Source: a virus. Taken from it: a DNA stretch of 64,000 nt. The stretch covers positions 26,152-90,151 of the IMG/VR virus record IMGVR_UViG_3300037010_002261. One strand, 5' to 3'. The position numbers and the translations under genes were made by a program. The notes under the pieces were generated by a model. That model did no database searches. It saw nothing but the letters and a program-made list of their open reading frames with translations, and was not told where the DNA came from. Shown here one piece after another: positions 1,667-49,885 of this stretch; the first letter of the stretch is position 1, and the number at the start of each line of letters is the position of its first letter.

Positions 1667-1674
1667 AAAGTAAT

Positions 1675-1755: not shown

Positions 1756-1769
1756 CCCGTAAGACCCTT

Positions 1770-1850: not shown

Positions 1851-1856
1851 CCCACC

Positions 1857-1935: not shown

Positions 1936-1938
1936 TAT

Positions 1939-2021: not shown

Positions 2022-2023
2022 CC

Positions 2024-2029
2024 TAAATA
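2024..2029 (+). promoter_or_regulatory. Late-type TAAATA box before the HNH gene
   Basis: TAAATA lies 6 bases before the ATG at 2036, the spacing seen before many genes here. A transcript starting there would be leaderless. Confidence 0.45.
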
Positions 2030-2035
2030 GGCAGC

Positions 2036-2545: not shown

Positions 2546-2549
2546 TCAC

Positions 2550-2634
2550 GCGCCCGTGGCGGAATGGGTAGACGCGGCAGACTCAAAATCTGTTGCCGCA
2601 AGGCGTGTCGGTTCGAGTCCGACCGGGCGCACCA
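2550..2634 (+). tRNA. tRNA-Leu(CAA)
   Basis: Acceptor GCGCCCG/CGGGCGC, A, encoded CCA. Anticodon arm GCAGA-CTCAAAA-TCTGT gives CAA. Long variable arm; T arm GTCGG-TTCGAGT-CCGAC. Strongly similar to the tRNA-Leu at 11092. Confidence 0.9.
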
Positions 2635-2638
2635 AGTG

Positions 2639-2667
2639 TTTACAAGCGGATCGTGATGATGTACAAT
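2639..2667 (+). promoter_or_regulatory. Sigma70-type promoter with conserved leader
   Basis: TTTACA (2639-2644), 17 bases, TACAAT (2662-2667) followed by CAT. The downstream leader has GATACTTAGGAG just before the ATG at 2704, a block shared with the promoters at 5208, 7200 and 39497. Confidence 0.8.
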
Positions 2668-2703
2668 CATTCCATTCTGCCAACCGATACTTAGGAGCAC
2701 AGC

Positions 2704-2961
2704 ATGACCTTCCCGACACAAATTGTAGTCACAAAAGACGGCGTCGAGGTGTTCAACGCGGTCGCAGGAATTCATCGCGGCCAACCGCTGACCTACCCAG
2801 GCTGCGAGGACTCTGCTGCGCGAGGCTTCATCTGCTTTGCAAGCCCACTCATTGGTTGCGCTTACCACTACACCAGTTACATCGAAGCCGCTGAGCGCAT
2901 CGCCCGCATGGGTTACATTACGACCATCACGGAAGCCGGCGCCGACAAGGTGATTCAATGA
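2704..2961 (+). CDS. Hypothetical protein, 85 aa
   Basis: Unrecognised small protein directly behind a strong promoter and an AGGAG ribosome-binding site, hence probably early. It begins TFPTQIVVTKDG and has several Cys and Tyr residues in the middle (ARGFICFA, GCAYHYTSY). Its stop overlaps the next start by ATGA, so the two are likely co-translated. Confidence 0.6.
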   Translation: MTFPTQIVVTKDGVEVFNAVAGIHRGQPLTYPGCEDSAARGFICFASPLIGCAYHYTSYIEAAERIARMGYITTITEAGADKVIQ

Positions 2962-3248
2962 GCTGCGTTCACAACTACAAGCCGGTCGAAGGCGTCCGCG
3001 CCGTCTACCGCTGCCCAAGCTGCGGCATCTTTGCGCACAAGAGCAAGGCTCGCATCGGTCATGGCTCAAGCACCGAACTGACACCCTACAAGTGCCACCG
3101 CACAGGGTGCGATCAGCCGGTTGTCGTGCTGTACCCGGTTGTCAAGGGACGGAAGCGCTCACAACCTAGCTGCACCTTCCACCGCAAGGACCAAGAGATC
3201 GCAGAGCTCGGGCCGCTGTCCGACGCCATCCGAAACTTCAAGCGGTGA
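2958..3248 (+). CDS. Zinc-ribbon-like small protein, 96 aa
   Basis: Cys/His pairs at residues about 3-5 (CVH), 19-22 (CPSC), 46-51 (CHRTGC) and 72-75 (CTFH) suggest one or two bound zinc ions. The basic C-terminus would suit nucleic-acid binding. Function unknown. Overlaps both neighbours by four bases. Confidence 0.55.
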   Translation: MSCVHNYKPVEGVRAVYRCPSCGIFAHKSKARIGHGSSTELTPYKCHRTGCDQPVVVLYPVVKGRKRSQPSCTFHRKDQEIAELGPLSDAIRNFKR

Positions 3249-3466
3249 AGCTCGAGTACCTGACCGATAAGGCAAGGCACCTCATCTGCTTGCCCTACTC
3301 AATCGAGAACCTGCACCTGATGGCGCAGGAGCTCAACATCGCTCGCTGCTGGTTCCACAAGGACCACTACGACATTCCCAAGCGCCGCATCGCTGAGATC
3401 GAAGCGAAGTGCCGGATCGTGACCAGCCAGGACATCGTCCGGATCGCGAGGCACGGTGGCGACTAA
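3245..3466 (+). CDS. DUF4031-like protein, 73 aa
   Basis: GTG start overlapping the upstream stop. The order HLICLPYSIENLHLMAQ, then ARCWFHKDHYDIP, matches the DUF4031 family found in phages and bacteria, whose activity is unknown to me. The stop codon TAA is itself the beginning of a TAAATA late box for the next gene. Confidence 0.65.
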   Translation: MKLEYLTDKARHLICLPYSIENLHLMAQELNIARCWFHKDHYDIPKRRIAEIEAKCRIVTSQDIVRIARHGGD

Positions 3467-3469
3467 ATA
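3464..3469 (+). promoter_or_regulatory. Late-type TAAATA box overlapping a stop codon
   Basis: TAAATA begins with the stop codon of the DUF4031-like gene and ends 5 bases before the ATG at 3475. Confidence 0.45.
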
Positions 3470-3474
3470 CCAGC

Positions 3475-4035
3475 ATGAAGTGCTGGCATGAACTGACTAT
3501 CCCGACAGCGGGCGCCCTAAGACCTGGTTGGACGCTCCCCGCTGACCCCAAGCCCTGGGCTATCTATGACCCTACGCTGACCGACATCTTCACCGATGAT
3601 TGGTTACGCTGGATGACCTTGATCGGCCTGCCGGTCTGCCAGGCTATCTTGTTCTACAAGCAGCCTTGGGCTCGAAGCCCCATCGCGCACATCGACATGA
3701 GCACGCCGACTAGGCCGAAAGCATTTGCTTTTAACTGGGTCCTAGGCGGCAAGGGGAGCAAGATGCTGTGGTACACAGGGCATGAGGGCAAAGCAGGTGC
3801 CGCAAGCCTGACCATGGTCGAGACAGACTACCTCTCATGGCCTAAGACGGAGCTCACGCTTATTGACAGCCATGAGGTCAAGCAAGAGCTTACGCTCGTG
3901 CGCACGGACGTTCCGCACTCCATTGACGTGGAGGCTGAGCCTCGGTGGTGCATTAGCGTAAGGGTTCCTGACAGCGTCATTGGGGCCTCTTGGAACGAAG
4001 CTGTAGCTAAGCTGCAGCACCTCATCATCGGATGA
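3475..4035 (+). CDS. 2OG-Fe(II) oxygenase-like double-stranded beta-helix protein, 186 aa
   Basis: The central part has an H-x-D motif (HIDM at about residue 73), then FNWVLGG and MLWYTG, a distal His (VPHSID) and a distal Arg in RWCISVRV. This order is the iron and 2-oxoglutarate binding pattern of the jelly-roll oxygenases. Substrate unknown; phage members may hydroxylate nucleotides or proteins. The stop codon overlaps the first bases of the tRNA-Ser gene at 4030. The ATG at 3475 was chosen because of the TAAATA box just before it. Confidence 0.55.
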   Translation: MKCWHELTIPTAGALRPGWTLPADPKPWAIYDPTLTDIFTDDWLRWMTLIGLPVCQAILFYKQPWARSPIAHIDMSTPTRPKAFAFNWVLGGKGSKMLWYTGHEGKAGAASLTMVETDYLSWPKTELTLIDSHEVKQELTLVRTDVPHSIDVEAEPRWCISVRVPDSVIGASWNEAVAKLQHLIIG

Positions 4036-4120
4036 TAAACCGGGCGGGCGTCCGGGGCCGCCTTGAAAGCGGTACGGTTCGGCTAGTACCCGGGCTGGGG
4101 TTCGAGTCCTCTGTCATCCG
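4030..4120 (+). tRNA. tRNA-Ser(TGA)
   Basis: Acceptor GGATGAT/GTCATCC, anticodon arm GCCGC-CTTGAAA-GCGGT giving TGA, a long variable arm and a T arm with TTCGAGT. CCA not encoded (G-CCG follows). Its 5' end overlaps the stop codon of the preceding CDS. Confidence 0.85.
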
Positions 4121-4170
4121 CCGCTTTATATCACCTTGGCCGAAAAGGTAATATAATGCAAACACATCAC

Positions 4171-4253
4171 GCCCTCGTGATAAATGCAAATTGGTACAGC
4201 TACTAGCTTGAGATGCTAGATTTTTGCGGGTTCGAGTCCCGCCGAGGGCACCA
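4171..4253 (+). tRNA. tRNA-Leu(GAG) with a shortened variable region
   Basis: Acceptor GCCCTCG/CGAGGGC, A, encoded CCA. Anticodon arm CTAGC-TTGAGAT-GCTAG gives GAG. The D loop has AAATTGGTA. Only six bases (ATTTTT) lie between the anticodon and T stems, so the usual Leu variable arm is missing, as in the Leu(CAG) at 1857. Confidence 0.8.
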
Positions 4254-4254
4254 A

Positions 4255-4399
4255 GGTGACATGCTGAAAATTGGTAGACAGCGTCGCGGTCAAGTCAAGA
4301 CGGAGAGGCCTTATCACCCTCGCATGCCCATGGCAGGAACCGATGGCATAAGCTAGCATGACAGACTATGCATCGTAGGTTCGAGTCCTACTGTCACCT
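4255..4399 (+). tRNA. tRNA-Leu-like element, 145 nt, with a large internal expansion
   Basis: The ends form a good acceptor (GGTGACA/TGTCACC), a T arm GTAGG-TTCGAGT-CCTAC and a Leu-like D arm (CTG-AAAATTGGTAGA-CAG). Between the D and T arms lie about 100 bases instead of about 45, with several small inverted repeats. I could not place a canonical anticodon arm. It may be an intron-containing, rearranged or decayed tRNA-Leu. Confidence 0.5.
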
Positions 4400-4402
4400 T
4401 AC

Positions 4403-4491
4403 GGAAGATGAACCGGACAGGGTCCGGACCTGCTTCGAAAGCAGTGGGAGTCACAGAGATGTGGCTTGGGGTTCAAGTCCTCCGTCTTCCA
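4403..4491 (+). tRNA. tRNA-Ser(CGA)
   Basis: Acceptor GGAAGAT/GTCTTCC, anticodon arm CTGC-TTCGAAA-GCAG giving CGA, long variable arm, T loop TTCAAGT. CCA not encoded. Confidence 0.85.
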
Positions 4492-4493
4492 CC

Positions 4494-4579
4494 GCCCCGT
4501 TGGCGAAATTGGTAGACGCAGCAGGCTTAAACTCTGCCGCCTCGGAAGAGGCGTACCGGTTCGAGTCCGGTACGGGACA
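4494..4579 (+). tRNA. tRNA-Leu(TAA)
   Basis: Typical Leu layout with D loop AAATTGGTAGAC, anticodon arm GCAGG-CTTAAAC-TCTGC giving TAA, variable arm GCCTCGGAAGAGGC and T arm ACCGG-TTCGAGT-CCGGT. One mismatch in the acceptor (second pair). Confidence 0.85.
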
Positions 4580-4582
4580 CAT

Positions 4583-4677
4583 GGATAGTTAACCGGTTAG
4601 GTGACCGGACCTGCTTGGAAAGCAGTGGGATTCTTCGGTAACGAGGGATTGGGTTTCGAGTACTCAACTATCCGCCA
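4583..4677 (+). tRNA. tRNA-Ser(GGA)
   Basis: Acceptor GGATAGT/ACTATCC, G, encoded CCA. Anticodon arm CTGC-TTGGAAA-GCAG gives GGA. Long variable arm. The final A of CCA is also the first base of the ATG at 4677. Confidence 0.85.
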
Positions 4678-5075
4678 TGATAGCACACAACGACATTACC
4701 GGCGATGCCCTCAAGTCCAAGTCAACTACCGACTCCTACCGTAGCGGGTGGGACCGAATCTTTGGCAAGAAGGCTGAAGAACAAGAGCCAGCTGCAGAAG
4801 CACTTGGCAAGGAAAAGCGGTACATTGTCCGTGTTGGGCTTGACGCAAAGTACTCGCCCGAAACCGCCGCAAGGCTAATCAATGCAGAGTACGGCACGGT
4901 GCTTCGCGCGTCTGGTCAAAGCTTGCTTATCACGCTGCGTGACGCTCCCGACACGCTCAACCACCTGAAGGAGGCTACAGGTTGCGCTGTGTCCGAGGAG
5001 GTGCTGTACAAACGGCCTGACGCACGCTTACATGTACGGCTCTACGACGACCCGCTCGAAGATCATCACGACTGA
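4677..5075 (+). CDS. Hypothetical protein starting on a tRNA CCA end, 132 aa
   Basis: Unrecognised, acidic at both ends. A middle segment KRYIVRVGLDAKYSPETAAR and a later LLITLRDAPDTLNHLKE suggest a small alpha/beta fold. The only ATG uses the last A of the upstream tRNA-Ser CCA, and there is no Shine-Dalgarno element. Either translation and tRNA maturation compete, or a non-ATG start further inside is used. Confidence 0.55.
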   Translation: MIAHNDITGDALKSKSTTDSYRSGWDRIFGKKAEEQEPAAEALGKEKRYIVRVGLDAKYSPETAARLINAEYGTVLRASGQSLLITLRDAPDTLNHLKEATGCAVSEEVLYKRPDARLHVRLYDDPLEDHHD

Positions 5076-5092
5076 GTAAAGCGCGAATTCAT

Positions 5093-5188
5093 GGAAGGTT
5101 AACCAGGTAGGTGCCTGGACCGGATTGCTAATCCGAGGGTCTCGCTCTCAACAAGCGGGATGGGTTTCGAGTACTCAGCCTTCCGCCA
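5093..5188 (+). tRNA. tRNA-Ser(GCT)
   Basis: Acceptor GGAAGGT/GCCTTCC, G, encoded CCA. Anticodon arm CGGA-TTGCTAA-TCCG gives GCT. Very long variable arm. With TGA, CGA and GGA this completes a serine set. Confidence 0.85.
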
Positions 5189-5207
5189 TCTTTTTGTCTC
5201 TCGAGTG

Positions 5208-5236
5208 TTTACACGGAGGCCGTACTGGTGTACAAT
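5208..5236 (+). promoter_or_regulatory. Sigma70-type promoter
   Basis: TTTACA (5208-5213), 17 bases, TACAAT (5231-5236) then CAT. The leader includes CAGTGATACTTGGAG before the ATG at 5273, nearly identical to the leader at 7230-7260. Confidence 0.8.
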
Positions 5237-5272
5237 CATCATATCGGCAACAGTGATACTTGGAGATGCAAG

Positions 5273-5617
5273 ATGCTCAAATCGCTCAATGATTCCAACC
5301 TTTGCGCCCTGCATGCAGGCGCCACGAAGGTCTGGTACTACAAGCCCGCGGTCGCCCGCTACATCACCTTCGGCGAGGTCAAGGTTGACCCGAAGAACCT
5401 GGAGGCAACGCACGTGCTGTTGGGCTCCATCGCCGAAACCCACCTCGAAGCTATCTTCGGCTCTCTCCAAGGTGAATGCTGGTCCCCGAACGGCGAAGCC
5501 CGCGAGCTAATCACGAGCAAGGAGCTGAACCACACCTCGATGTCCGTCGGTGACGTGATCGAGGTCAACGGCCGCGCCTACGAGTGCAAGCCGTTTGGCT
5601 TTGCGGAGCTGGTATGA
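5273..5617 (+). CDS. Hypothetical protein, 114 aa
   Basis: The start ATG at 5273 follows GGAG and the promoter leader; an earlier in-frame ATG would lie inside the promoter. Residues near the C-terminus, HTSMSVGDVIEVNGRAYECKPFGF split around residue 95, resemble a domain widespread in plasmid and phage hypothetical proteins. No catalytic motif is obvious. Its stop overlaps the next start (ATGA). Confidence 0.6.
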   Translation: MLKSLNDSNLCALHAGATKVWYYKPAVARYITFGEVKVDPKNLEATHVLLGSIAETHLEAIFGSLQGECWSPNGEARELITSKELNHTSMSVGDVIEVNGRAYECKPFGFAELV

Positions 5618-5847
5618 CCTACTCATCCATCTGCTGTGCCTCTAACCGGGGCGGCTGCGGCCACACCTTCACGCCGGCGCGCGAGTTCCAAAAAGCTTGC
5701 TCCCGTGACTGTGCTTCGCGCATGATCGGCCAAGTCACTGAAGAGCTGCGGCTGGCTCGCCGGCAGTACTACATCGAGCGACAAGCAACGCTCTCAGATC
5801 TGGTCCCTAAGCCGAAGCGCAAGCGCGCTCGTCGGCGCAGGAAGTAG
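5614..5847 (+). CDS. Small Cys-rich basic protein, 77 aa
   Basis: N-terminal Cys residues (SICCASNRGGCGH, then KACSRDCASR) suggest a zinc knuckle. The C-terminus is a run of Lys/Arg (PKPKRKRARRRRK) typical of nucleic-acid binding. Role unknown. Confidence 0.55.
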   Translation: MTYSSICCASNRGGCGHTFTPAREFQKACSRDCASRMIGQVTEELRLARRQYYIERQATLSDLVPKPKRKRARRRRK

Positions 5848-5848
5848 C

Positions 5849-6471
5849 ATGAGCAATTCGTCTGACATGCGACGAGCTCTCCTCATCATGCAGCAAGCCT
5901 GCATCGATGATGGCCATGAGCTGACCTTCAAACGAGTCAAAGCGCGGACAGTCAAGGTCACAGTGGTCAACGCCGGCGACACCTTGACGATGACCTGGGA
6001 GGCCTACAAGACAGGCTTCCTTAGCATCGAGTGCGGTGACCAAAGCCGCATGTATCCAGTCGGGTACGATCCTGTTCCCACAGCGGCTGCTGAGCTCAGG
6101 GCGCTAGACTGGAGCTTCAGGGTCATGCGCGCTCCGACTTTGGAGCTAAAGTCTTTCGTGAGCGAGCGTAAGGCCAATGCGGCTCCGACCAAGCATGTCA
6201 TGAACAAGCATGAGCGCAAGCTCATGACGCAGCTGCGGCAAAGTCAGGCAAGACCGAAGCCGAGGTGCGGCGGGACCCGACCGCCCGCCGGCAGCTGGCC
6301 GAGGCTCGCAAGCTTGGCAACAAGCCGGCGGGCGACCACGTGTTCGACGGTCGTAACTGGCTCACGCCTCACCAAGCGGCCAGCCGGGTAGTCGAGCGCG
6401 CTCGCCTGAAAGGCGTCACCAAGCCGATCTACGCTGATGAGCTTGCCAAGGCTCTGAAGAGGGCAAAATGA
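5849..6471 (+). pseudogene. LQQ-family gene broken by a frameshift near 6240
   Basis: The first frame (MSNSSDMRRALLIMQQACID onward) is coherent to about residue 130, then becomes Arg/Thr/Pro-rich nonsense. The coherent continuation (KSGKTEAEVRRDPTARRQL and on to ALKRAK) lies in the -1 frame. It ends at a TGA that overlaps the next ATG in the usual ATGA manner, which supports it as the real C-terminus. One missing base in the AAA run at about 6240 would restore a 207-aa protein. Sequencing error, true decay or recoding are all possible. Confidence 0.6.
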
Positions 6472-6709
6472 ACAACACCCACCGCATCACGTACGTTGTT
6501 CACGCTCTCGTAGACCTGGTTCAGCTCAAGCTGGAATACTCCATGGACCAGCGCGAGGAGGCCGAGGCTTTAGCTGGCTCCTTCAAACGTGTCGGCTTCC
6601 AGGTCCAACTCGGCCGTGTCATGTCACCTACAGCGGCAACACCGTGCGGGAGGAGCTGGACATTCAGAGCACTCCCGCGCTCACGCTCACCCAAACAAGG
6701 AGCTCATGA
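6468..6709 (+). pseudogene. Small gene broken by a frameshift near 6615
   Basis: The N-terminal half (HRITYVVHALVDLVQLKLEY and onward to FQVQLGRV) continues sensibly in the -1 frame as TYSGNTVREELDIQS. It ends with a TGA overlapping the ATG of the next gene. About 80 aa when repaired. Function unknown. Confidence 0.55.
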
Positions 6710-6921
6710 TGATCTACCAAGCCTGCGGCGCTATCACCGCCTTCTCCCTCCTTGCCATGGGCCTGATCACCTTCGATGCTCTCGACGGACCTGTGTATGA
6801 CCGACTCAACACGGCTCTCAAGCGCCTGAACGGGCGCCATGCAGGCATCGCCCTGCTCTTGGGCTGCGTCGCCCTGCTGAGCTTTTTGATCGCTTTGCTT
6901 GCTAAAGGAGCAACACCATGA
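6706..6921 (+). CDS. Small membrane protein with two hydrophobic segments, 71 aa
   Basis: Start ATG-ATG at 6706 after AAGGAG. Hydrophobic segments at residues about 5-24 (CGAITAFSLLAMGLITF) and 45-66 (AGIALLLGCVALLSFLIALL) with a short charged loop between. Inner-membrane protein of unknown role. ATGA overlap with the next gene. Confidence 0.65.
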   Translation: MMIYQACGAITAFSLLAMGLITFDALDGPVYDRLNTALKRLNGRHAGIALLLGCVALLSFLIALLAKGATP

Positions 6922-7193
6922 GCCAAGACTTTGACGAGATCAACCCAGCACCCGAGGTGTCCTACATCCCGCGCTGGTCCTTCACCTTGAGCAAGAAGGA
7001 CGCGCTGCTGGTCCTCAAGGCCCTGGGTGGCCGCTTGACCGATGTCGAGGTCAAGGAGGCCAAGGAGCTTGGCGACCGCTTGACCGAGCTGCGGCAAGCC
7101 ACCGGTCAGGACTACCAGAACTCCTTGGACCGTGCGGCACGCGCCGCGGCTGAAGGCTTCACCGGCAAGCGGAACGTAGCTCCAAAGAGCTGA
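6918..7193 (+). CDS. Hypothetical protein, 91 aa
   Basis: Predominantly helical and charged, with TLSKKDALLVLKALGGRLTD and a second amphipathic helix ending in RAARAAAEGF. No known motif. Last gene before a new promoter at 7200. Confidence 0.55.
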   Translation: MSQDFDEINPAPEVSYIPRWSFTLSKKDALLVLKALGGRLTDVEVKEAKELGDRLTELRQATGQDYQNSLDRAARAAAEGFTGKRNVAPKS

Positions 7194-7199
7194 AAGCCG

Positions 7200-7229
7200 T
7201 TTACATCACGGTCCGAATGGGTGTACAAT
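7200..7229 (+). promoter_or_regulatory. Sigma70-type promoter
   Basis: TTTACA (7200-7205), 18 bases, TACAAT (7224-7229) then CAT, followed by the leader ACAACAGTGATACTTAAGGAG shared with 5240-5266. Confidence 0.75.
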
Positions 7230-7265
7230 CATCTTATCGACAACAGTGATACTTAAGGAGACGGC

Positions 7266-7532
7266 ATGAGCCTCCAATTTGCATTTCTCGAGATCGCCTA
7301 CGACAATGGCTGCGTCAATAGGTCCATGCCCGAGAGCAAGGTCCTGGACAAGATGTGGGGCGTTGTACGCCTCAAGTTTGACTCGAAGGTCATCGCTGAC
7401 GTCGACAAGGAGCTCTCTGCCATGCCTCGGCACGCTTTGGAGGAGCTTTGCTCTGGCGAGGAGTCCGAGCAACCGAGCGTGTCGCAAAACGCGCGCGACA
7501 TCCTGGAACACGCTTTCAACCACATGGTGTGA
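7266..7532 (+). CDS. Hypothetical protein, 88 aa
   Basis: First gene of the promoter at 7200 with a good AAGGAG site. Acidic, mostly helical, no recognised motif. Contains VLDKMWGVVRLKFDSKVIAD in the first half. Confidence 0.55.
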   Translation: MSLQFAFLEIAYDNGCVNRSMPESKVLDKMWGVVRLKFDSKVIADVDKELSAMPRHALEELCSGEESEQPSVSQNARDILEHAFNHMV

Positions 7533-7534
7533 TC

Positions 7535-7707
7535 ATGAGCCTCCTGTCCCTCTACCTCTGCCTCAGCTTCGTGATGTTCGGCTTCCTCATGGTGATCTGG
7601 AACCGCAGCGACCCGTTCAACCTCATCCTCAAGGTAGCCTTCGGGCGTTGACCGGGCTCGCCGCCTTCGTCGTCCTCACCCACTTCGGCTACATCATCAA
7701 AGCCTGA
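7535..7707 (+). pseudogene. Small two-segment membrane protein, frameshifted near 7648
   Basis: The first 38 codons encode a hydrophobic segment (LLSLYLCLSFVMFGFLMVIW) and stop at 7649. In the -1 frame the sequence continues as LTGLAAFVVLTHFGYIIKA, a second membrane segment ending at a TGA just before the next promoter. Restoring one T in GTTGA gives a 57-aa double-span protein. Confidence 0.5.
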
Positions 7708-7717
7708 CAACTTTTTG

Positions 7718-7746
7718 TTTACAACTTGCTTGGCAGGTGTTACTAT
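7718..7746 (+). promoter_or_regulatory. Sigma70-type promoter of the YfaP-like gene
   Basis: TTTACA (7718-7723), 17 bases, TACTAT (7741-7746). A GGAAAGGAAA ribosome site precedes the ATG at 7775. Confidence 0.75.
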
Positions 7747-7774
7747 CTAGACCACAATAGGAAAGGAAATCCCG

Positions 7775-9856
7775 ATGACCCACGTGCTGAACTTCAACGT
7801 CTTCAAGAAGGCGATCCAGAAGCGCTTCGCGGAGATGACGGCCAACAACGCCGCTCTGTTCCGCGTCAGCATCCCGAAGGATGAGACCGGTGCCAAGAGC
7901 GACCTGCTCTGGAACACCTACTTGGGCGCCTTCCCGGAAGGCACCAACCCGATGTACCGTGAGCGCACGGAGCACGACTGTACCTGCTGCCGCCACTTCA
8001 TCCGTGACGTTGGCGACGTCGTGACGATCAACGCCGACGGCTCGCTCACGTCCATCTGGGACATCGACATCGCCGCCAAGGAGCCGGCTTACCAAACTGT
8101 TGCCAACGCGCTGTCCGCGACCGTCAAGGCTCACGCCATCGGCGACGTGTTCCTGCACTACCTGGACAAGGCCGGCACCGACCGCAGCTTCGAGCAGCTG
8201 GTCAACGGCGGTCAGCAAGCCTGGGATCACTTCTTCGTCAACATCCCGCGCGCTTACGTGGTGGGCAAGGACCATGTCGCGACCAAGCTGAGCGAAGACC
8301 GCTCGGCCCGTGACTCCCTGCACCGCAGCCTGACCGACCTGAGCATCGAGAACATCGACGCGGTGCTGGAGCTGATCACGCAGGGCTCGATCTACCGCGG
8401 TGACCAGTTCAAGGGCGCCGTCACCTCCTTCCGTGAGCTGAAGGCCGCTTTCGACAAGCTGTCGGCTGACCGACAAGCGCTCTTCGCCTGGACCAAGTTC
8501 AAGGCAGCAGGCGCACTGTGCGGCTTCCGCACTTCGGTCATCGGCACGTTGGTCGAGGACTTGGCCATGAAGGAGCTGGATGACGCCGTCAAGATCTACG
8601 AGTCCAAGACCGCCCCGCAGAACTACAAGCGTCCGACGGCGCTGGTTACCAAGGGCATGATCGAGAAGGCCAAGGGCGAGCTGCAGAAGCTGGGCTTGGT
8701 CTCGGCCCTGGAACGCCGCTTCGCAGTCCTGACGGACATCACGGTCAACAACGTGTTGTTCGCCAACCGCGACGCCAAGGCGACCATGACCGGCGACGTG
8801 TTCGATGACCTGGTGGGTGACGCCAAGGTCTCGACCAGGTCCTTCGACAAGATCGAGGAGGTGGGCATCGAGAAGTTCCTGAAGGACATCCTGCCGACGG
8901 CCAAGTCGATCGAGCTGCTGTTGGAGAACAAGCACACCAACCGCCTGGTCAGCCTGATCGCTCCAACCGACCCGACGGCTGGCAAGCTGTTTGCTTGGGA
9001 CAACTCCTTCAGCTGGTCCTACACCGGCGACGTGACGGACTCGATCAAGGAACGTGTTAAGAGCGCCGGCGGCCAAGTGGTCGGCGAGCTGTGCTGCCGC
9101 CTGGCCTGGGACTACACCGATGACCTGGATTTCCACATGGTCGAGCCGGGCGGCTCCGAGATCTACTACGGCAGCTACCGGCTGAAGGGTGGCCGTAGCC
9201 TGTCTCCGTGCGGTGGCGAGCTGGACCTGGACGCCAACGGCGTTGACGGCATGAAGAACGAGCCGTGCGAGAACATCTACTACGCCAACCGCAACCGCAT
9301 GAAAGAAGGCGTCTACGAGCTGTTCATCAACAACTTCGTCAAGCGGTCGACGGACGGCAAGGGCTTCGGCGTCGACATCGAGTTCGACGGCGTGACCACG
9401 ACGATCTACTACGATCGCGCGATCCCGTCTCGGTCGAACCTGACCGTGGCGAAGATCAAGTACTCGAAGAAGGACGGCTTCACGATCATCGAGTCGCTGC
9501 CGAGCACGAGCACGACGAAGGATGTCTGGGGCCTGAAGACCCAGACCTTCCAGCAAGTCAACGTCGTGATGCTGTCACCGAACCACTGGGATGACCAGAA
9601 GGGCGCCGGCAACAAGCACTACTTCTTCATGCTGCAAGGCTGTGCCAATGACGGCACCGCCCGTGGCTTCTACAACGAGTTCCTGACCCCGGAGCTGAAC
9701 AAGCACCGCAAGGTCCTGGAGATGGTCGGCTCCAAGCTGAAGGTCGCCAAGGCGTCCGAACAGCTGTCGGGCCTGGGCTTCTCGTCCACGGTACGCGACA
9801 CCGTGGTCGTGCGTGTCAAGGGCGCTCTCAACCGCGTCATCCGAGTCGCATTCTGA
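7775..9856 (+). CDS. Large protein with a YfaP/DUF2135-like domain, 693 aa
   Basis: Residues about 430-550 contain CRLAWDYTDDLDFHMVEPGG, IYYGSYRLKGG and a Cys-flanked ELDLDANG, then ENIYYANR and YELFINNF. This order (LDLHV, YYG, LDVDAN, ENIYW, Y.V.VN) is that of DUF2135/YfaP beta-sandwich proteins. The first 400 residues are charged and helical with no family I recognise; an early CTCCRH may bind metal. Codon use is strikingly uniform and C-rich, suggesting high expression. It is paired with the 140-aa gene 32 bases downstream. Confidence 0.55.
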   Translation: MTHVLNFNVFKKAIQKRFAEMTANNAALFRVSIPKDETGAKSDLLWNTYLGAFPEGTNPMYRERTEHDCTCCRHFIRDVGDVVTINADGSLTSIWDIDIAAKEPAYQTVANALSATVKAHAIGDVFLHYLDKAGTDRSFEQLVNGGQQAWDHFFVNIPRAYVVGKDHVATKLSEDRSARDSLHRSLTDLSIENIDAVLELITQGSIYRGDQFKGAVTSFRELKAAFDKLSADRQALFAWTKFKAAGALCGFRTSVIGTLVEDLAMKELDDAVKIYESKTAPQNYKRPTALVTKGMIEKAKGELQKLGLVSALERRFAVLTDITVNNVLFANRDAKATMTGDVFDDLVGDAKVSTRSFDKIEEVGIEKFLKDILPTAKSIELLLENKHTNRLVSLIAPTDPTAGKLFAWDNSFSWSYTGDVTDSIKERVKSAGGQVVGELCCRLAWDYTDDLDFHMVEPGGSEIYYGSYRLKGGRSLSPCGGELDLDANGVDGMKNEPCENIYYANRNRMKEGVYELFINNFVKRSTDGKGFGVDIEFDGVTTTIYYDRAIPSRSNLTVAKIKYSKKDGFTIIESLPSTSTTKDVWGLKTQTFQQVNVVMLSPNHWDDQKGAGNKHYFFMLQGCANDGTARGFYNEFLTPELNKHRKVLEMVGSKLKVAKASEQLSGLGFSSTVRDTVVVRVKGALNRVIRVAF

Positions 9857-9888
9857 TCCACCCGTGCAACACTGAAAGGAAGCACATC

Positions 9889-10311
9889 ATGACAACCAAC
9901 ATCGACAACCTGCTGCTGCAGGCCTCCCGCCAGAAGTGGCGCTTCGACACGCCGAAGGGCGCGCTGGCCATCGAGGACCTGTGGGACCTGCCGCTGACCT
10001 CGGGCACCGGCAAGGCCAACCTGGACGACATCGCCAAGTCTCTGTTCCGCAAGGCCAAGGCCGACAATGACGAGCCGACCAGCTTCGTCACGGCCAGCGC
10101 CAAGCCGGCTGACGTCGTCACGCCGCTGAAGCTCGAGGTCGTCAAGTACGTCATCGACGTCATCTCGACCGAACGCACGGCCGCCGCCAACGCCGCCGCT
10201 CGCGCCGCTCAGCGCCAGCTGGTGATGAAGGCCATCGACGACAAGAAGGCCAACGCCATCAACGACATGTCCGTCGAGGACCTGCAGGCCCTGCTGGAAT
10301 CGCTGAAGTAA
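9889..10311 (+). CDS. Conserved-looking helical phage protein, 140 aa
   Basis: Begins after an AAAGGAAGCACATC ribosome site. Contains RQKWRFDTPKGALAIEDLWDLPL, a block I associate with small proteins of many large phages, then a long basic helix (RTAAANAAARAAQRQ). Same C-rich codon use as the upstream 693-aa gene, so probably highly expressed with it. Function unknown. Confidence 0.6.
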   Translation: MTTNIDNLLLQASRQKWRFDTPKGALAIEDLWDLPLTSGTGKANLDDIAKSLFRKAKADNDEPTSFVTASAKPADVVTPLKLEVVKYVIDVISTERTAAANAAARAAQRQLVMKAIDDKKANAINDMSVEDLQALLESLK

Positions 10312-10331
10312 GCTTCGGCCTGGATGATGTG

Positions 10332-10359
10332 TTTACAAGGCTTGGCTTTGTGATACAAT
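10332..10359 (+). promoter_or_regulatory. Sigma70-type promoter
   Basis: TTTACA (10332-10337), 16 bases, TACAAT (10354-10359) then CAT. Drives the gene at 10392. Confidence 0.7.
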
Positions 10360-10391
10360 CATCCTACCGAATCCCAAACAGCGAGACTGCC

Positions 10392-10691
10392 ATGCAATAC
10401 CCAAGCAACCTGTTCAACTTCAGCAAGCACTTGGGTATGCTGGTAACACGTGCTGGCGTCCTGCAGCACGCCGCTCGAGGCCTCCCGATCTTCGAGCCTG
10501 TCAATGACCGCACCGCCGATGAAGGCATGCACGTCATCTCGACAGGCTCGGGCGAGGAGGCCTCGTTCTATGTCAGCCATGTTGACAAGAAGCATGACGG
10601 CACCGTCAAGAGCTGGCTGCTGAAGCCCACGCTCGACACCGTGATCCGCCTGCCACAGCTCAGCAAGGCCAAGATTCTGGTGGTCGCATGA
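10392..10691 (+). CDS. Hypothetical protein, 99 aa
   Basis: ATG at 10392 was preferred because the in-frame upstream ATG lies inside the promoter. No recognised motif; the C-terminal half looks like a small beta sheet (EASFYVSHVDKK, SWLLKPTLDTVIRL). ATGA overlap with the next gene. Confidence 0.55.
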   Translation: MQYPSNLFNFSKHLGMLVTRAGVLQHAARGLPIFEPVNDRTADEGMHVISTGSGEEASFYVSHVDKKHDGTVKSWLLKPTLDTVIRLPQLSKAKILVVA

Positions 10692-10949
10692 GCTCGTTCA
10701 AAGAGGCGTTGTTGGTTCTCCCTGAAGCGGACCTGGTCCTGATGGCCGAGTCCCTGCTCGGGAACGAGCTGTTCAGCATCGTCGTTGACGCTGAGACCAA
10801 CCCGCTGGTGCTGAAGCACCAGAGCCACACAGCGCTCGACGAGCTCAGCAAGCGGCCGTACGTTCAAGCATTACCTGAAGCCAGCAAGGTTAAAGATCCT
10901 CGAGCTGGTTGAGCAAGCACGTCATCCCATCGACGCAACCGATGAGTAA
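10688..10949 (+). pseudogene. Small gene broken by a frameshift near 10862
   Basis: The frame is coherent up to DELSKRP. The following residues in frame look random, while the +1 frame reads TFKHYLKPARLKILELVEQA and ends at TAA 10947. Removing one base near 10862 gives an 86-aa protein. Function unknown. Confidence 0.5.
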
Positions 10950-11091
10950 CCAGCCGATGGAGGCTATCATGTAGCGCAAGCTATGCATATGATCACACAA
11001 TAGAGAACTCATCTTTTATACTGTCCAGGAAAGATGGTTGGGCTTACGTATATGGCGAAAGCCTGGGCTTGACACAGGACTTTCCAAAAGC

Positions 11092-11178
11092 GCGCCCGTG
11101 GTGAAATTGGTAGACACACCAGGTTTAGGTCCTGACGCCAGCAGTGGCGTGCCGGTTCGAGTCCGGCCGGGCGCACCA
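11092..11178 (+). tRNA. tRNA-Leu(TAG)
   Basis: Acceptor GCGCCCG/CGGGCGC, A, encoded CCA. D loop AAATTGGTAGAC. Anticodon arm CCAGG-TTTAGGT-CCTGA gives TAG. Variable arm GCCAGCAGTGGC. The last A of CCA is the A of the ATG at 11178. It stands alone, far from the other clusters; bases 10950-11091 hold nothing else I can identify. Confidence 0.9.
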
Positions 11179-13896: not shown

Positions 13897-14168
13897 GCAA
13901 GAACAAGCTCCTGGAGCTTCAACAAACGTTCATCGACCGACTTGCGCTTGACTATGACGTGGTCCTGCGGGACAAGAAGCTGCACGTGATGCGGGGCACA
14001 CGGATCATGATCCACGCTGTCTTCATGGAGACCGTGGATCAGGTGATGCTGGCGTTCTTCACCGGCAACCCGATCTTCTTCGTGTGGTCAGAGGATGGGC
14101 CTGCTTACATCGCCAAGATCGGCGTTGAGCGTTTGCACAAAGAGCTCGACAAGAATCCGTGGAAGTAA
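13893..14168 (+). CDS. LQQ-family protein, 91 aa
   Basis: A clean short member of the family: KNKLLELQQTFIDRLALDYD, then strands DVVLRDKKLHVMRGTRIMIH. Probably the minimal domain. Its stop is followed directly by the tmRNA acceptor segment. Confidence 0.6.
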   Translation: MSKNKLLELQQTFIDRLALDYDVVLRDKKLHVMRGTRIMIHAVFMETVDQVMLAFFTGNPIFFVWSEDGPAYIAKIGVERLHKELDKNPWK

Positions 14169-14169
14169 A

Positions 14170-14434
14170 TAAGAGCTGAACAGCGTAAACTGAAGGTAAG
14201 AAAAGCGGCGACACCCGGGTTCAATTCCCGGCACCTCCACCCAAGCACATATCATGTGTTCTTCGGTGGGGGTGACTTGGCGATCGACCGACGCGTAGTA
14301 TGACCATAGGCGCTCGATAGGTGACTGCCGTAAGCAGCGCAAAGCATTACAAACGCAAACGACTCTGTCTACGCGATGGCGGCCTAATAAGCCTTCGGAG
14401 TTCGTAGCCGTACTTGGCAACAGAAACGGCTACA
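14170..14434 (+). ncRNA. ssrA: Circularly permuted (two-piece) tmRNA, tag ANDSVYAMAA
   Basis: The 3' tRNA-like part comes first: T arm CCGGG-TTCAATT-CCCGG (14215-14231), CACCTCC (14232-14238) and A-CC. A short hairpin spacer (14242-14267) follows, and then the normal 5' end GGGGGTGACTTGGCGATCGA (from 14268). GGGGGTG pairs with CACCTCC over all seven positions (one G-U). The resume codon GCA at 14355 opens a tag reading ANDSVYAMAA and ending TAATAA (14385-14390), close to the E. coli tag ANDENYALAA. A strong hairpin closes at about 14431. This is the gene order of permuted ssrA in alphaproteobacteria, some betaproteobacteria and cyanobacteria. It rescues stalled ribosomes and tags nascent chains. 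Confidence 0.85.
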
Positions 14435-14930
14435 CCCCTTCAGGATATACCCACGTCCTCTTACCGTCAACGACGGCAATTTTCCTGCCTGTAATTGTCT
14501 TAGACAATTTTTCAGCTGACTTGCGTCCATTTTCAGCTGCATTGGGATTCTTTACCCCTTTGTTCCAGGCAGGTTTCCCCGTGCCTTTCCCCTTTCGGCC
14601 TTCGCTGATAGCTTTACAATAGTCTTCAGACATTGTCTTGCCTGCATTCCATGGCAATTGACCTTTCTTGCGACCGACTTTCTGATTGTAGTACTTGGTA
14701 TTGTACTCACAGTCCTTAATTCTGGCTAGTAGATCCCATTCTAGCTTTCGAATCTCTTCAATGTCGCTGATCTTAAGGATTCGACGCTTGAAGTCTTGAG
14801 GTCGATAGTGATATTCACCATTGAACCAACGCGACGATGAGGTGTAGCTGTCTGTCGGTACTCCTTCATGAGAGCCGATGTAGTACATGTTACGCAACGA
14901 GTCGCGCCAGAGATAGATGAAGCCTTGCAT
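14430..14930 (-). CDS. GIY-YIG homing endonuclease, 166 aa
   Basis: N-terminal FIYLWRDSLRNMYYIGSHEG is the GIY-YIG core in the phage Seg-like form, followed by YTSSSRWF. The second half has NUMOD3-like DNA-binding repeats (GKTMSEDYCKAISEGRKGK, PAWNKGVKNP). AT-rich against a GC-rich background. It is antisense to, and abuts the last hairpin of, the tmRNA gene, which is a plausible homing target. Confidence 0.85.
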   Translation of the reverse strand: MQGFIYLWRDSLRNMYYIGSHEGVPTDSYTSSSRWFNGEYHYRPQDFKRRILKISDIEEIRKLEWDLLARIKDCEYNTKYYNQKVGRKKGQLPWNAGKTMSEDYCKAISEGRKGKGTGKPAWNKGVKNPNAAENGRKSAEKLSKTITGRKIAVVDGKRTWVYPEGV

Positions 14931-41407: not shown

Positions 41408-41445
41408 TTCGCCTTTGCTCCTTGTATACAAGGAGCAAAGGCGAA
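41408..41445. repeat. 38-bp perfect palindrome
   Basis: Left arm TTCGCCTTTGCTCCTTGTA, right arm its exact reverse complement, no spacer. A second outer pair, CAGCAAG and CTTGCTG, flanks it. It lies in the 232-base gap between the gp16-like and gp4-like genes, with no T tract. The rest of that gap shows nothing else. Confidence 0.95.
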
Positions 41446-44917: not shown

Positions 44918-45733
44918 TTAGTCCTTGAGTGAGGGGCGTGACCCGCTCTTGATAGCAGTTGACGCAAATTTGCCGCGCTGCACGGCGTCATTGATTGCGT
45001 CAATGTTGGTGTCGAGGTGGCTCATATAGAGCATGCCCTTACCCTTCTGATAGCCCTCATAGTCATCGGACATGCAGAACGGGTCAATGATGACCGGCTG
45101 TGACCCACGCAGCATTAGGTTGCTTGCATGGAGGTCAAGGTCGATGTCAACCTCATTGTTGAAGAGCACTTGCCGAAGAGCTTGGGCTACCTTGAACAGG
45201 TCAGCAGATGAGGCTAGCAAGTGGTCAAGCACCTTGGCGGCAGCTATTGCTTCAGGTGACGGGTCCTTCATCCGATGAGTGAAGATCTCTACGTCACGAT
45301 GCGCATGTTCGGGTGTGAAGCCTGAGATCGAGACCTTCGTAGCAACAAACGTCTTGAGAAATACCGTCAAGGCCCCTGTGAAGTCGTGAGCGGCGGGGGA
45401 GCGCTTAGGCATCGGCGTCAAGCGTTCCATCTTGACGATCTTAAGGAAGCCGTCAACGGTGTCTGGCCGTTTGAAGAAGATCGGCAGACGATGAATGCGG
45501 CCAAACTTAGGAACGAAGACGTTGCTCTGCATCGAGCTAGCGACACGGTAGAAGGCTTCATAGCCAGGGTCATTGGTCCAGACCTTGTACACAGCGTCGC
45601 CCGCTTTAGGAATGACGACTACGCTAAACGCGCCGGTGTCATTGATGTACGCATGCTGCTTGAGCTGGTCCATCAACTCGTAGAAGTCTTTGTCCAGGTA
45701 CTGCTTGTAGCCGTGAAGCTCATTGAGGATCAT
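44918..45733 (-). CDS. Protein-kinase-fold (phosphotransferase-like) protein, 271 aa
   Basis: N-lobe FSVVVIPKAGDAVYKVW with a candidate ATP-binding Lys and later IVKMERL hinge; C-lobe DIDLDLHASNLMLRGSQPVI with IDPF, equivalent to the HxD...N catalytic loop and the DFG Asp. Targets could be host proteins or an aminoglycoside-like small molecule. TAAATA lies eight bases before the start. Confidence 0.6.
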   Translation of the reverse strand: MILNELHGYKQYLDKDFYELMDQLKQHAYINDTGAFSVVVIPKAGDAVYKVWTNDPGYEAFYRVASSMQSNVFVPKFGRIHRLPIFFKRPDTVDGFLKIVKMERLTPMPKRSPAAHDFTGALTVFLKTFVATKVSISGFTPEHAHRDVEIFTHRMKDPSPEAIAAAKVLDHLLASSADLFKVAQALRQVLFNNEVDIDLDLHASNLMLRGSQPVIIDPFCMSDDYEGYQKGKGMLYMSHLDTNIDAINDAVQRGKFASTAIKSGSRPSLKD

Positions 45734-45760: not shown

Positions 45761-45789
45761 TGTACATCAGCTTCCATTTATAGTATAAT
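45761..45789 (+). promoter_or_regulatory. Promoter of the PEP-CTERM island
   Basis: TGTACA (45761-45766), 17 bases, TATAAT (45784-45789), then GGAG before the ATG at 45814. Confidence 0.65.
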
Positions 45790-45813
45790 AGGCCGTACCT
45801 TTTGGAGCAGTAC

Positions 45814-46308
45814 ATGAAACATATCCTCACAGCCCTGGCCCTCGCGGCCTTCGCTGCAGCCTCAGCTGCTGCAGCACCCGTCCCTCTGGGCACGTTGAAC
45901 CCGAGCTCTTCGTTCAGCCACACCGTGGCCGGCGAGTTCCACGACAGCTACACCTTCACCCTCGCTTCAAACTCGATCGTCGGCTCGTCTGTCACAAACG
46001 TCGCGATCGACTTCGTCGGCTTCAAGTTCGGCGACATCACGGACTTCTCAGCAACGCTCAACGGCATTGACCTGGTCTTGAACTCGGTCACCGGCACAGG
46101 GCCAGGCTACACGATCAGCACGCAAGTGCTCGCCGGCAGCACAACGTTGGCCGCAGGTAACTACTTGCTGAATGTCAACGGCGTAGCTCACGGCTTGAAT
46201 GCCAGCTACGGCGGCAACGTCGTTGCAACGCCGGTTCCCGAGCCGAGCGCCTACTTGCTGCTGGTTGCTGGTCTCGGCGCAATCGCCTTCGTCCGTCGCC
46301 GTCAATGA
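45814..46308 (+). CDS. PEP-CTERM-sorted exported protein (FxDxxT type), 164 aa
   Basis: Signal peptide KHILTALALAAFAAASAAAA. The mature part contains EFHDSYTFTLAS, the F-x-D-x-x-TF motif of a PEP-CTERM subfamily. The C-terminus has PVPEPSAYLLLVAGLGAIAF then VRRRQ: Pro-Glu-Pro, a membrane span and an Arg cluster, the signal cut by exosortase. Such proteins are typical of biofilm-forming Gram-negative bacteria and are exported with exopolysaccharide. This is a bacterial gene type carried by the phage, with its own promoter and terminator. Confidence 0.88.
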   Translation: MKHILTALALAAFAAASAAAAPVPLGTLNPSSSFSHTVAGEFHDSYTFTLASNSIVGSSVTNVAIDFVGFKFGDITDFSATLNGIDLVLNSVTGTGPGYTISTQVLAGSTTLAAGNYLLNVNGVAHGLNASYGGNVVATPVPEPSAYLLLVAGLGAIAFVRRRQ

Positions 46309-46424
46309 CCAAGCTGCTGAAGTACTGGGTATGGGCCGTAGGCCTAGGCTTAGGAGTACCCACGCTGTTCGTCATCGCTTCGATGATGGATGATCATGCT
46401 CAGAGCAACCATCGAAAGTGGTGA
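46305..46424 (+). CDS. Small membrane protein, 39 aa
   Basis: ATGA overlap with the PEP-CTERM gene. One hydrophobic segment (WVWAVGLGLGVPTLFVIASM) and a polar tail. The frame stays open for some distance after its TGA, but runs into the terminator, so the TGA is probably the true end. Confidence 0.5.
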   Translation: MTKLLKYWVWAVGLGLGVPTLFVIASMMDDHAQSNHRKW

Positions 46425-46508
46425 CAAGAACACTGGGAAGGCTCAGGCTACCCTGCATGGTATGAGTCAGGCGTGGGTTGCAAGAGTACTTTAGGCCTGC
46501 GAAAGACT

Positions 46509-46542
46509 GAGGCCCCCGGCGCTTCACAGCGCCGGGGGCCTC
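46509..46542. terminator. Strong bidirectional hairpin terminator
   Basis: GAGGCCCCCGGCGC, loop TTCACA, perfect 14-bp complement GCGCCGGGGGCCTC. It separates the rightward PEP-CTERM island from the leftward tail genes. T tract weak. Confidence 0.75.
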
Positions 46543-46873: not shown

Positions 46874-47467
46874 TTACTGAACCAGACCGCCGATAGCCGA
46901 GCCGGTGACGGAAGGCAGCAGCACTTGACGAGCGTGGTCGAAACGAACGGTCAGGTTGATCATGACCTTTTCACCTGTCGAGACATCGAGATCCGTCCAG
47001 TCCACGGCTTGCAAGAAGCAGCCTTCATACTTCCAGGTTTCGGTGACCGCTTCGTTACCATCTAGCATCTCAAGCATCATGCCGAACTTGTAGCCGAAGG
47101 CGGTTGCCTCGGTGTTCAGCCATGGGCCCGAAGCGCCGATCAAGCGTTGCTGACGTTCCAGCTGCGTCTGTACAGCGTTTGCCGCCTTGTTTGTGACGTC
47201 ATCTTCGACGGTCATCTGGCAGTAGTCGAAGCTGTGCTTACCCGCGATGTATGCGCGCGAGTTATAGCGGTCGAGCTGGATGTCTTCGAAAGAGAGGCTT
47301 GGACGAGTCCAAGTCACAACCTGCATTGACAGGTCATTAGGCACGCCAGCTTGAGCGCCCAGTGAGCCTCCCAGGCCTGAGAAGATAGCGCGCCAGCGGT
47401 TCTTGTGCTTTGGATGCAGGATACCGGTGCCGATGCCCGCGATACCAACTTGTGAGAGCGTTCCCAT
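46874..47467 (-). CDS. Tail tube protein (gp19-like), 197 aa
   Basis: Contains PHNRWRAIF-like KHKNRWRAIFSGLG, MQVVTWTRPSLSFEDIQLDR, EDDVTNKAANAVQTQLERQQ and the ending YEGCFLQAVDWTDLDVSTGE with VRFDHA, all in gp19 order. It stacks as hexamers to form the inner tube. Upstream is TAAATATAG and a GGGTTGTTACCC-type inverted repeat. Confidence 0.8.
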   Translation of the reverse strand: MGTLSQVGIAGIGTGILHPKHKNRWRAIFSGLGGSLGAQAGVPNDLSMQVVTWTRPSLSFEDIQLDRYNSRAYIAGKHSFDYCQMTVEDDVTNKAANAVQTQLERQQRLIGASGPWLNTEATAFGYKFGMMLEMLDGNEAVTETWKYEGCFLQAVDWTDLDVSTGEKVMINLTVRFDHARQVLLPSVTGSAIGGLVQ

Positions 47468-47727: not shown

Positions 47728-48446
47728 AGTTGTTCCACGTCAATCGAGATAACAGCCTCTACAACCGCAATGCGCTTGTCTGACCGCAGCTGAGGATCAA
47801 AGAATAAACGGCTCTCAATCTTGAAGAAGCCATTGTAGTCAGGATCACCTGGGTTGAAGTCGCGCACGATGAAACAGTCGTCGCCCGCCTCATAGCCGAC
47901 ACACAAGATAGCATGCGTAGTAGGTTCATACTCGGAATTATCAAGCATGTCTTGGTTTGGGAACGGGATGATGCCGTTCTTCACCTTCTCAACCATGTCT
48001 TGCGTAGCACCTAGCTCGCGATAGTGAGCCCAGTACCAATGATCGCTGTCATTCCTCTTACCGTCACGCAAGATTTTTGCAGCAAGGTAATAGGAGTCAG
48101 ACCAACGAATTGACACGATCAGGGGCAGCTCCTTTGCTAAAGCTGTTTTAGCTTCAGCCATGCCATTGACAAAGTCATAGGTAAATTCAATGTTGAACTT
48201 ATCCTTCAGCACCTCAACCACTTCGTTCGGGTGGATGTCAGCACCTGAGCCGTCCCAATCATTGTGAGCAAAGAACTCATACAGATCTTTCTCGGAAATG
48301 TGAACATGCTTCAGCTTGAAGGCTTCAACGAGAGCCTTCAGCAAGCAATGAAACTCACCATGACTGTGCTCGTGCTCGAACGCGTCGAGGAAGACGATCA
48401 GGTCATCCCGCACAATGTGCTTTTCAAGCAGGTCACGGATCTTCAT
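47724..48446 (-). CDS. Papain-like (C1/C39-type) cysteine-peptidase-fold protein, 240 aa
   Basis: GEFHCLLKALVEAF may hold the catalytic Cys; PLIVSIRWSDSYYLAAKILR is a core strand and helix; THAILCVGYEAGDDCFIVRD gives the catalytic His with a later Asp/Asn. A second protein of this type is at 57922. Target unknown; it could process a virion protein or act on host proteins. Confidence 0.5.
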   Translation of the reverse strand: MKIRDLLEKHIVRDDLIVFLDAFEHEHSHGEFHCLLKALVEAFKLKHVHISEKDLYEFFAHNDWDGSGADIHPNEVVEVLKDKFNIEFTYDFVNGMAEAKTALAKELPLIVSIRWSDSYYLAAKILRDGKRNDSDHWYWAHYRELGATQDMVEKVKNGIIPFPNQDMLDNSEYEPTTHAILCVGYEAGDDCFIVRDFNPGDPDYNGFFKIESRLFFDPQLRSDKRIAVVEAVISIDVEQL

Positions 48447-49315
48447 GGCTTAGCAGGTGGCTGGACATGGCACTCAGGATCGGTGCTCGGGTCGTAGTGT
48501 TCAGTTAGGGATGCGTGCGGAACGTCATCAGGATATTCTATGTCGCCGTCAACGATGTCCGAACGCACGATCACCTGTCCGATGAGTTGGTTGGGGTCAA
48601 ACGGGGCTAGCTCGCCGTCCTCACCTACTTCGAGGATCTTGGTCCCACCTTCGCTGTCCATGTTTGCAAAGTTGAGCGTAATCGTGTTGATCAGGCCCTG
48701 CTTGACTTCAGCTGGCGGGCTAATCCAAGTCTCAAAGGTGAAGCTGAGGTTCCAGACGATGATGCGACGATCGGTGCCTGCTGGGTAGTTCTCCTCGTTG
48801 CCGATGGAGTCCAGGATGACCCGCGTGATCTTTGCCCAGTCAAACGGCGAGTCATTGAACTGAACCTGCATCTCATAGTCAAAGATGATCAGAATCTGCT
48901 CGATGATCTGATAAGCCTGGTCGGTGTTGGAGGCGTAAATCGACAGCTCGTAGGTCAGGTTGTACGGCGTCGGCATGGTCCGCTTGATGAACTTGACATC
49001 CTGCGGAAAGACGCCACCCTGCTCGAGATATGACTTACGGTCATGAGTGCCGTGACCGTGCTTACGCTCAGGCGCCATCTCGATGCCGGTCAGGTAGCAG
49101 GACATGATCGGGAGAGTGTGCAAGGCGTTTTGCGTGTTGCGCGTCGCAATAGCCGCGGCTACCCGATCCGACGAGCCGTAACGGATCGGCACTACCAGCT
49201 CGTCAATCTCGCCGCACGCATTTTGTCCTGTGCGGACACGCATGTTGGCGAAGATATTGGCGAAGACGATGGTCGCCTTCTTGAGCTGCTGATTGTAGTA
49301 GTAGCTATTGAGCAT
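48443..49315 (-). CDS. Tail sheath completion/stabiliser protein (gp15-like), 290 aa
   Basis: Starts MLNSYYYNQQLKKATIVFAN, followed by an FIKRTMPTPYNLTYELSIYA strand pair and QIIEQILIIFDYEMQVQFND, matching T4 gp15, which caps the sheath and tube and joins the tail to the head. The start was taken at 49315, five bases after CTAAATA, although the frame is open for 15 more codons upstream. Confidence 0.8.
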   Translation of the reverse strand: MLNSYYYNQQLKKATIVFANIFANMRVRTGQNACGEIDELVVPIRYGSSDRVAAAIATRNTQNALHTLPIMSCYLTGIEMAPERKHGHGTHDRKSYLEQGGVFPQDVKFIKRTMPTPYNLTYELSIYASNTDQAYQIIEQILIIFDYEMQVQFNDSPFDWAKITRVILDSIGNEENYPAGTDRRIIVWNLSFTFETWISPPAEVKQGLINTITLNFANMDSEGGTKILEVGEDGELAPFDPNQLIGQVIVRSDIVDGDIEYPDDVPHASLTEHYDPSTDPECHVQPPAKP

Positions 49316-49356
49316 GCGGCTATTTAGGCCGCATAGCTCAACGGTTAAATTAAACG

Positions 49357-49885
49357 TCAATGTGAATCCCAGACATTGAACCCGCCACGGTCAGTGGTCA
49401 GGCCCAAGTCTCGCTTCATGTACGTAATGACAGCGTGGTTGAGCGCGCCGGCCATGGCCGTACTTATGGTCGGGGAGGTGACCCAAGACAAACATGATCG
49501 CTCCCTTCAAGGCCGCAACCTTTTGAGCAGACGCGTCATGATCCTTGAGTGCACGGGCGATGTTTCGGATGAAACCTTCAAACCCGGTCAGCTTGTCATG
49601 CCCCAAGTCCGCGACGTGCTTCGGGTTGACGCGCTTGAAGTCGGAGTCGAGCTCGTGCACGAGCTCGACGGCGTCTGTCACGAACGCTTGGTCATGCGCA
49701 TGTGAGGCCAAGAAGTCACACAGGTCATGAAAGAATTGCTTCGGCTCAACGGCTGCAAGGTACTCTGTGAACTCAGCGTTGTCGCTCAGCGACGACAACG
49801 AATGGTCATAAAGCTGTTGCCACCCGTCAAAGTGGGGAACAGGCTCTTCGGTCAGGAACTTTTTTGAATGACATACTGTCCTCAC
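49357..49885 (-). pseudogene. Hypothetical gene frameshifted near 49460
   Basis: GTG start overlapping the VWA gene stop. Coherent through ALKGAIMFVLGHLPDHKYGH; the +1 frame then gives MAGALNHAVITYMKRDLGLT and ends at TGA 49357. 529 bases is one more than a multiple of three. Helical, His-rich; unknown function. Repaired about 175 aa. Confidence 0.5.

Follow-up and report, generated by a model that had tools for sequence, protein, structure and literature searches.

Why should a phage carry, among the genes for its tail, a gene whose product has the signals of a bacterial surface-sorting system? PEP-CTERM/exosortase sorting was defined in bacteria by genome comparison, and few of its substrates have a known job. 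The window analyzed here, a stretch of 64,000 bases (positions 26152–90151 of a 90151-base IMG/VR record), contains such a gene. A sequence-only reading had described it as part of a phage moron, a rightward unit with its own promoter and terminator that might alter the host surface and exclude other phages. The features on which the argument turns are these.

44918–45733, minus strand: left neighbor, kinase-like protein (phrog_15752, E 2e-4; 55% relative in the related record L014)
45761–45789, plus strand: sigma70-type promoter, TGTACA-17-TATAAT (consensus scan)
45804–45807, plus strand: ribosome-binding site GGAG, with the ATG 6 nt downstream (read from the sequence)
45814–46308, plus strand: P0001, an FxDxF-family PEP-CTERM protein of 164 aa (NF038126, PF07589 and TIGR02595 all above cut-off)
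45814–45876, plus strand: predicted signal peptide, about residues 1–21 (hydropathy; A-x-A run before PVP)
46234–46305, plus strand: PEP-CTERM sorting signal, consisting of PEP motif, hydrophobic helix and RRR tail (TIGR02595; C-terminal helix in a low-confidence model)
46305–46424, plus strand: doubtful 39-aa open reading frame with one hydrophobic segment, its start overlapping the PEP stop as ATGA
46509–46542, no strand assigned: perfect 14-bp GC hairpin with a 6-nt loop between convergent units, a candidate terminator lacking a U-tract
46874–47467, minus strand: right neighbor, tail tube protein (phrog_4542, 147 bits)
48443–49360, minus strand: T4 gp15-type tail sheath stabilizer (PF16724, 153 bits)

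The PEP-CTERM protein

The NF038126 profile, which describes the FxDxF family, matches P0001 over its full length (residues 7–163) at 100.9 bits, against a curated cut-off of 50 bits. PF07589 matches at 31.1 bits (cut-off 20.7), and TIGR02595 at 26.4 bits (cut-off 16) over residues 141–164. The frame reads MKHILTALALAAFAAASAAAAPVPLG...EFHDSYTFTL...VVATPVPEPSAYLLLVAGLGAIAFVRRRQ, in which the FxDxxTF motif is F42-D44-TF48 and the C-terminal tail is VPEPSAYLLLVAGLGAIAFVRRRQ. Hydropathy reveals only two hydrophobic segments, one at each terminus, and no further transmembrane segment; the published definition of the class describes the same two terminal segments (PMC1569441). P0001 has both an N-terminal signal peptide and the C-terminal succession of PEP motif, helix and basic cluster that characterize PEP-CTERM proteins. 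Its earlier identification from signal peptide, motif and tail is therefore borne out by three profiles, and its assignment as a phage-borne protein of the exosortase-substrate type is supported by a sequence that fits export and exosortase recognition.

The NF038126 proteins of Burkholderiales resemble P0001 in full-length match, motif, signal peptide and sorting tail, with identities of up to 43%; P0001 differs from them in being carried by a phage, with no exosortase nearby and no close cellular match. The PepA flocculation family (NF033554) shares the sorting signal, but P0001 falls outside that family, scoring 25.4 bits where the cut-off is 80 bits, with a match confined to the tail. The ectodomain of P0001 keeps the conservation of its own family. 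A PDB search with a model of the protein (pLDDT 63) returned zero matches at E ≤ 0.001, and a function based on fold was set aside: the weak matches resembling carbohydrate-binding modules are no evidence. P0001 has no match in PHROG and belongs to a cellular surface family. Only one sequence type of the gene is known, so that selection on it is not measurable.

Anatomy of the inserted unit

By chance, about 0.1% of random 100-nt sequences would contain an exact TATAAT preceded by a fair −35 element, and the claim of a sigma70 promoter belonging to the gene itself stands as a sequence match. A promoter-like form, TTTACA-N16/18-TACAAT, recurs at several genes between positions 1367 and 39497 of the window, on both strands, often with a shared leader, GATACTTAGGAG, between it and the ATG; it is probably the phage's own promoter class. 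The PEP promoter shares 10 of 12 positions with this form and so may be a member of the same class.

The other parts of the proposed unit fare less well. The perfect 14-bp stem is present and its stretch folds with an energy of −39.7 kcal/mol (z −6.5), but neither strand has a T-run at the hairpin and a terminator scan found no site there, so the label of terminator is unproven. A second long perfect hairpin (41408–41445, 17-bp stem) lies between leftward genes, likewise with no T-run. The small membrane protein said to accompany P0001 does correspond to a reading frame with one hydrophobic segment; however, 39% of the ATGA sites in the window open an equally long frame (39 aa). Its reality is thus uncertain, and with a length within chance it was rejected as a sure gene.

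A variable site in a jumbo phage

The PEP unit runs rightward and the adjacent genes, for the tail tube, the tail sheath stabilizer and the kinase-like protein, all run leftward, as the sequence-only reading had noted. Terminase, head–tail adaptor, RNA ligase and helicase are also encoded in the window. Of the eight tRNA genes at positions 1582–11178 (plus strand), five are for leucine. The best deposited relatives of the tail tube protein belong to jumbo phages, namely XacN1 (45%), Stenotrophomonas phages CM1 and RAS14, and PA5oct, and among its relatives in IMG/VR are contigs of 360 kb and 389 kb; because of these relatives, the record probably covers only part of a jumbo phage genome. The contig is that of a T4-tailed jumbo phage (a myovirus) with XacN1 as a relative. 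Some 17.7 kb around the PEP unit recur without a difference in another record of 113 kb, IMGVR_UViG_3300036715_001578, although the two samples are possibly not independent.

Among relatives, the span from the tail tube gene to the next conserved tail gene differs. In L014, whose tube protein is 93% identical, the kinase-like gene is kept, but the place of the PEP unit is taken by genes for a DUF7487 protein of 537 aa and another protein of 300 aa; in L015 and L026 a single small gene occupies the site between the tail tube and the next conserved tail gene. Searches for PEP-CTERM proteins through 31 whole viral records, many of them short fragments, recovered only the two copies from the present phage, and the PEP unit is missing from the 29 related records and from every related tail module fetched. 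From the variability of the site and the restriction to two copies in 31 records, the gene is read as an accessory one, inserted in this phage or in its close relatives. An extra gene thus lies between genes that adjoin in relatives, under what is by sequence match its own promoter, and the moron-like anatomy proposed earlier holds in a real phage. Long reading frames of 710, 537 and 538 aa adjoin the tail tube gene in L014 (5825–10303) and L019 (8695–10311), the 537-aa frame being the one that matches DUF7487; they may encode mobile endonucleases and mark a hot spot for insertion.

Host and origin of the gene

The window contains a permuted, two-piece tmRNA gene (14131–14478, plus strand) with the tag ANDSVYAMAA, which scores 96.7 bits with RF04321 and 86.7 bits, barely over threshold, with the beta_tmRNA model. 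Two-piece tmRNAs are already known from phages, and a phage tmRNA may mirror a past host (PMC9004378). The record of a distant relative, L039, also has a permuted tmRNA. Burkholderiales genomes commonly encode FxDxF proteins and, taken together, these homologues and the betaproteobacterial type of the tmRNA indicate that the host is probably a betaproteobacterium. A search of the phage record, which is incomplete, found no exosortase; processing of P0001 would therefore need a host enzyme.

In a sample of about 800 genomes, the nearest cellular relative of P0001 reaches 43% identity, and the composition of the PEP gene falls inside the range of phage genes. On both counts a recent transfer from a known host was rejected. 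In a phylogenetic tree P0001 groups with two host genes (support 99/94) on long branches. The tree thus speaks against a common origin, confined to phages, of P0001 and of the small-phage proteins described below, but the AU test does not reject a clade that unites them (p 0.106), so there may have been one acquisition or several.

PEP-CTERM genes in other phages

An FxDxF alignment scan of IMG/VR yielded 31 contigs with PEP-CTERM proteins, of which some, other than those described here, may be prophages or host pieces. About 20 IMG/VR contigs (L095, L099, L092 and about 17 more) carry a shared tandem pair of PEP-CTERM genes or just one of the two, and one member passes NF038126 at 76 bits. 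At nine of these loci the pair, or the member present, lies downstream of a phage gene for DNA polymerase or primase/helicase, and at several of these an opposite-strand gene that by our reading resembles a tail fiber, with no PHROG match, directly follows the pair. The proteins are conserved along their length. Pairwise dN/dS values, mostly 0.2–0.6, argue that the tandem-pair genes are under purifying selection for the protein. L121, a 138-kb contig whose metagenome is also the source of the second record, encodes phage RNA polymerase subunits and thymidylate synthase, and at 7671–8087 a short repeat-bearing PEP-CTERM protein unrelated to P0001. Close to the latter gene lie those for a fatty acid desaturase and for further proteins that look secreted.

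Neither P0001 nor generic PEP-CTERM tails found a counterpart in 50,697 deposited phage records, the one match being at chance level (E 9). The same 30-aa tail query recovers annotated PEP-CTERM genes on plasmids, which indicates that the method works. The sequence-only reading had proposed such a search, and its outcome is divided: unrelated IMG/VR phages carry the family, but no close relative does, nor does any deposited record. A search of the open-licence literature in PubMed Central found no account of phage-borne PEP-CTERM proteins, save for a count in Yellowstone viral contigs of TIGR03118 proteins, which have a putative exosortase-interaction C-terminus (PMC11003980). These belong to another family, and P0001 has no TIGR03118 match.

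It may be, though we hold this with slightly less than even confidence, that phages recurrently carry exosortase substrates as a class of cargo not recognized until now, and that several unrelated lineages use the host exosortase to display a protein of their own and thereby reshape the surface coat of the cell they infect. The lineages meant are the XacN1-related jumbo phage, the jumbo phage that encodes an RNA polymerase, and the small DNA-polymerase-bearing phages with the tandem pair. It seems that this bacterial system of surface display has been borrowed by phages more than once, and the pattern across several groups is more interesting than the P0001 gene alone.

A proposed role at the surface of the infected cell

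The expected route of PEP-CTERM proteins is Sec insertion, cleavage at the PEP motif, and release to the surface or matrix. The account that we favor, and consider somewhat better than an even prospect, is that P0001 is accessory cargo of a jumbo myovirus, ultimately derived from a betaproteobacterial PEP-CTERM gene that was inserted next to the tail tube gene, at a site that varies. In the infected cell, the sigma70-type promoter of the gene would drive its transcription, and Sec would export the protein, whose C-terminal helix would keep it in the inner membrane. The host exosortase would then cut it at the PEP motif, and the product would pass to the outer surface or the exopolysaccharide layer and change the coat of the infected cell. 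A thickened or altered coat could keep other phages off the cell, or hold progeny and cells in aggregates; P0001 might also compete with host exosortase substrates. The intact gene, its sorting signal, its phage setting and the presence of the family in other phages are established, and expression, processing and a surface role are inferred from them.

This account is preferred because the full-length family match is joined by every sorting feature, an own promoter, and a strand opposite to that of the neighbors. It draws further on the identical second viral record, the embedding in tail genes, the lack of an exosortase in the phage record and the betaproteobacterial type of the tmRNA, and finally on the same family in other phages, with its conserved pair under purifying selection, and on the effect of PepA on polymers. 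In Aquincola, overexpression of PepA raises bound and lowers soluble polysaccharide (PMC9850573). Counted against it are that an exosortase-bearing host is presumed, that no close phage relative keeps the gene, and that P0001 scores far below the PepA-family cut-off. Less superinfection, changed aggregation and changed polysaccharide are all conceivable benefits to the phage, and the sequence does not choose among them; superinfection exclusion, suggested at the outset, is one possibility.

The PEP unit resembles phage morons and superinfection-exclusion genes in its separate promoter, gene and hairpin among structural genes, and in a likely envelope target. In the known cases the protein is a lipoprotein or membrane protein, usually from a temperate phage, and to our knowledge no moron or superinfection-exclusion protein uses exosortase. 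The curli genes of phage Melnitz likewise encode surface proteins and are absent from its host, and Melnitz and the present phage both have a two-piece tmRNA (PMC9004378). The proteins are unrelated, however, and their export pathways differ.

It is possible, although we think it unlikely, that the gene is a mere passenger, a host gene caught by chance in a tolerant, variable spot and of little or no benefit. Its occurrence in the present phage type only and the variable insertion site would suit such an origin. Yet the frame, promoter and ribosome-binding site are intact, every signal has survived far divergence from sampled host genes (43%), and PEP-CTERM genes recur in unrelated phages. That recurrence also weighs against an assembly chimera or misbinned host DNA, which we regard as highly improbable: the host-type family and the absence of the gene from close phage relatives might suggest it, but tail genes flank the unit on both sides, the composition of the gene is that of phage genes, and two records, albeit possibly from dependent samples, agree around it.

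A decoy function is distinctly improbable but would account for a phage that supplies the substrate and not the enzyme, and for a strong-looking promoter. Excess P0001 would saturate the host exosortase and leave host PEP-CTERM proteins and bound polysaccharide undisplayed, exposing receptors or loosening biofilm. The tail alone would suffice for this purpose, whereas P0001 keeps the family conservation of its ectodomain and the paired proteins of other phages are conserved along their length. A virion or lysis component in place of surface cargo is highly improbable. The tail-gene neighborhood and a possible coupling to the short membrane reading frame invite the idea, but the gene has the opposite strand and its own promoter, P0001 is of a cellular surface family foreign to PHROG, and the short frame is within chance expectation.

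Phages that keep PEP-CTERM genes, perhaps acquired repeatedly, would show that the exosortase system shapes phage success, and their proteins would supply small natural substrates for testing. A PEP-CTERM gene in a viral contig is, in addition, a usable clue to an exosortase-bearing host.
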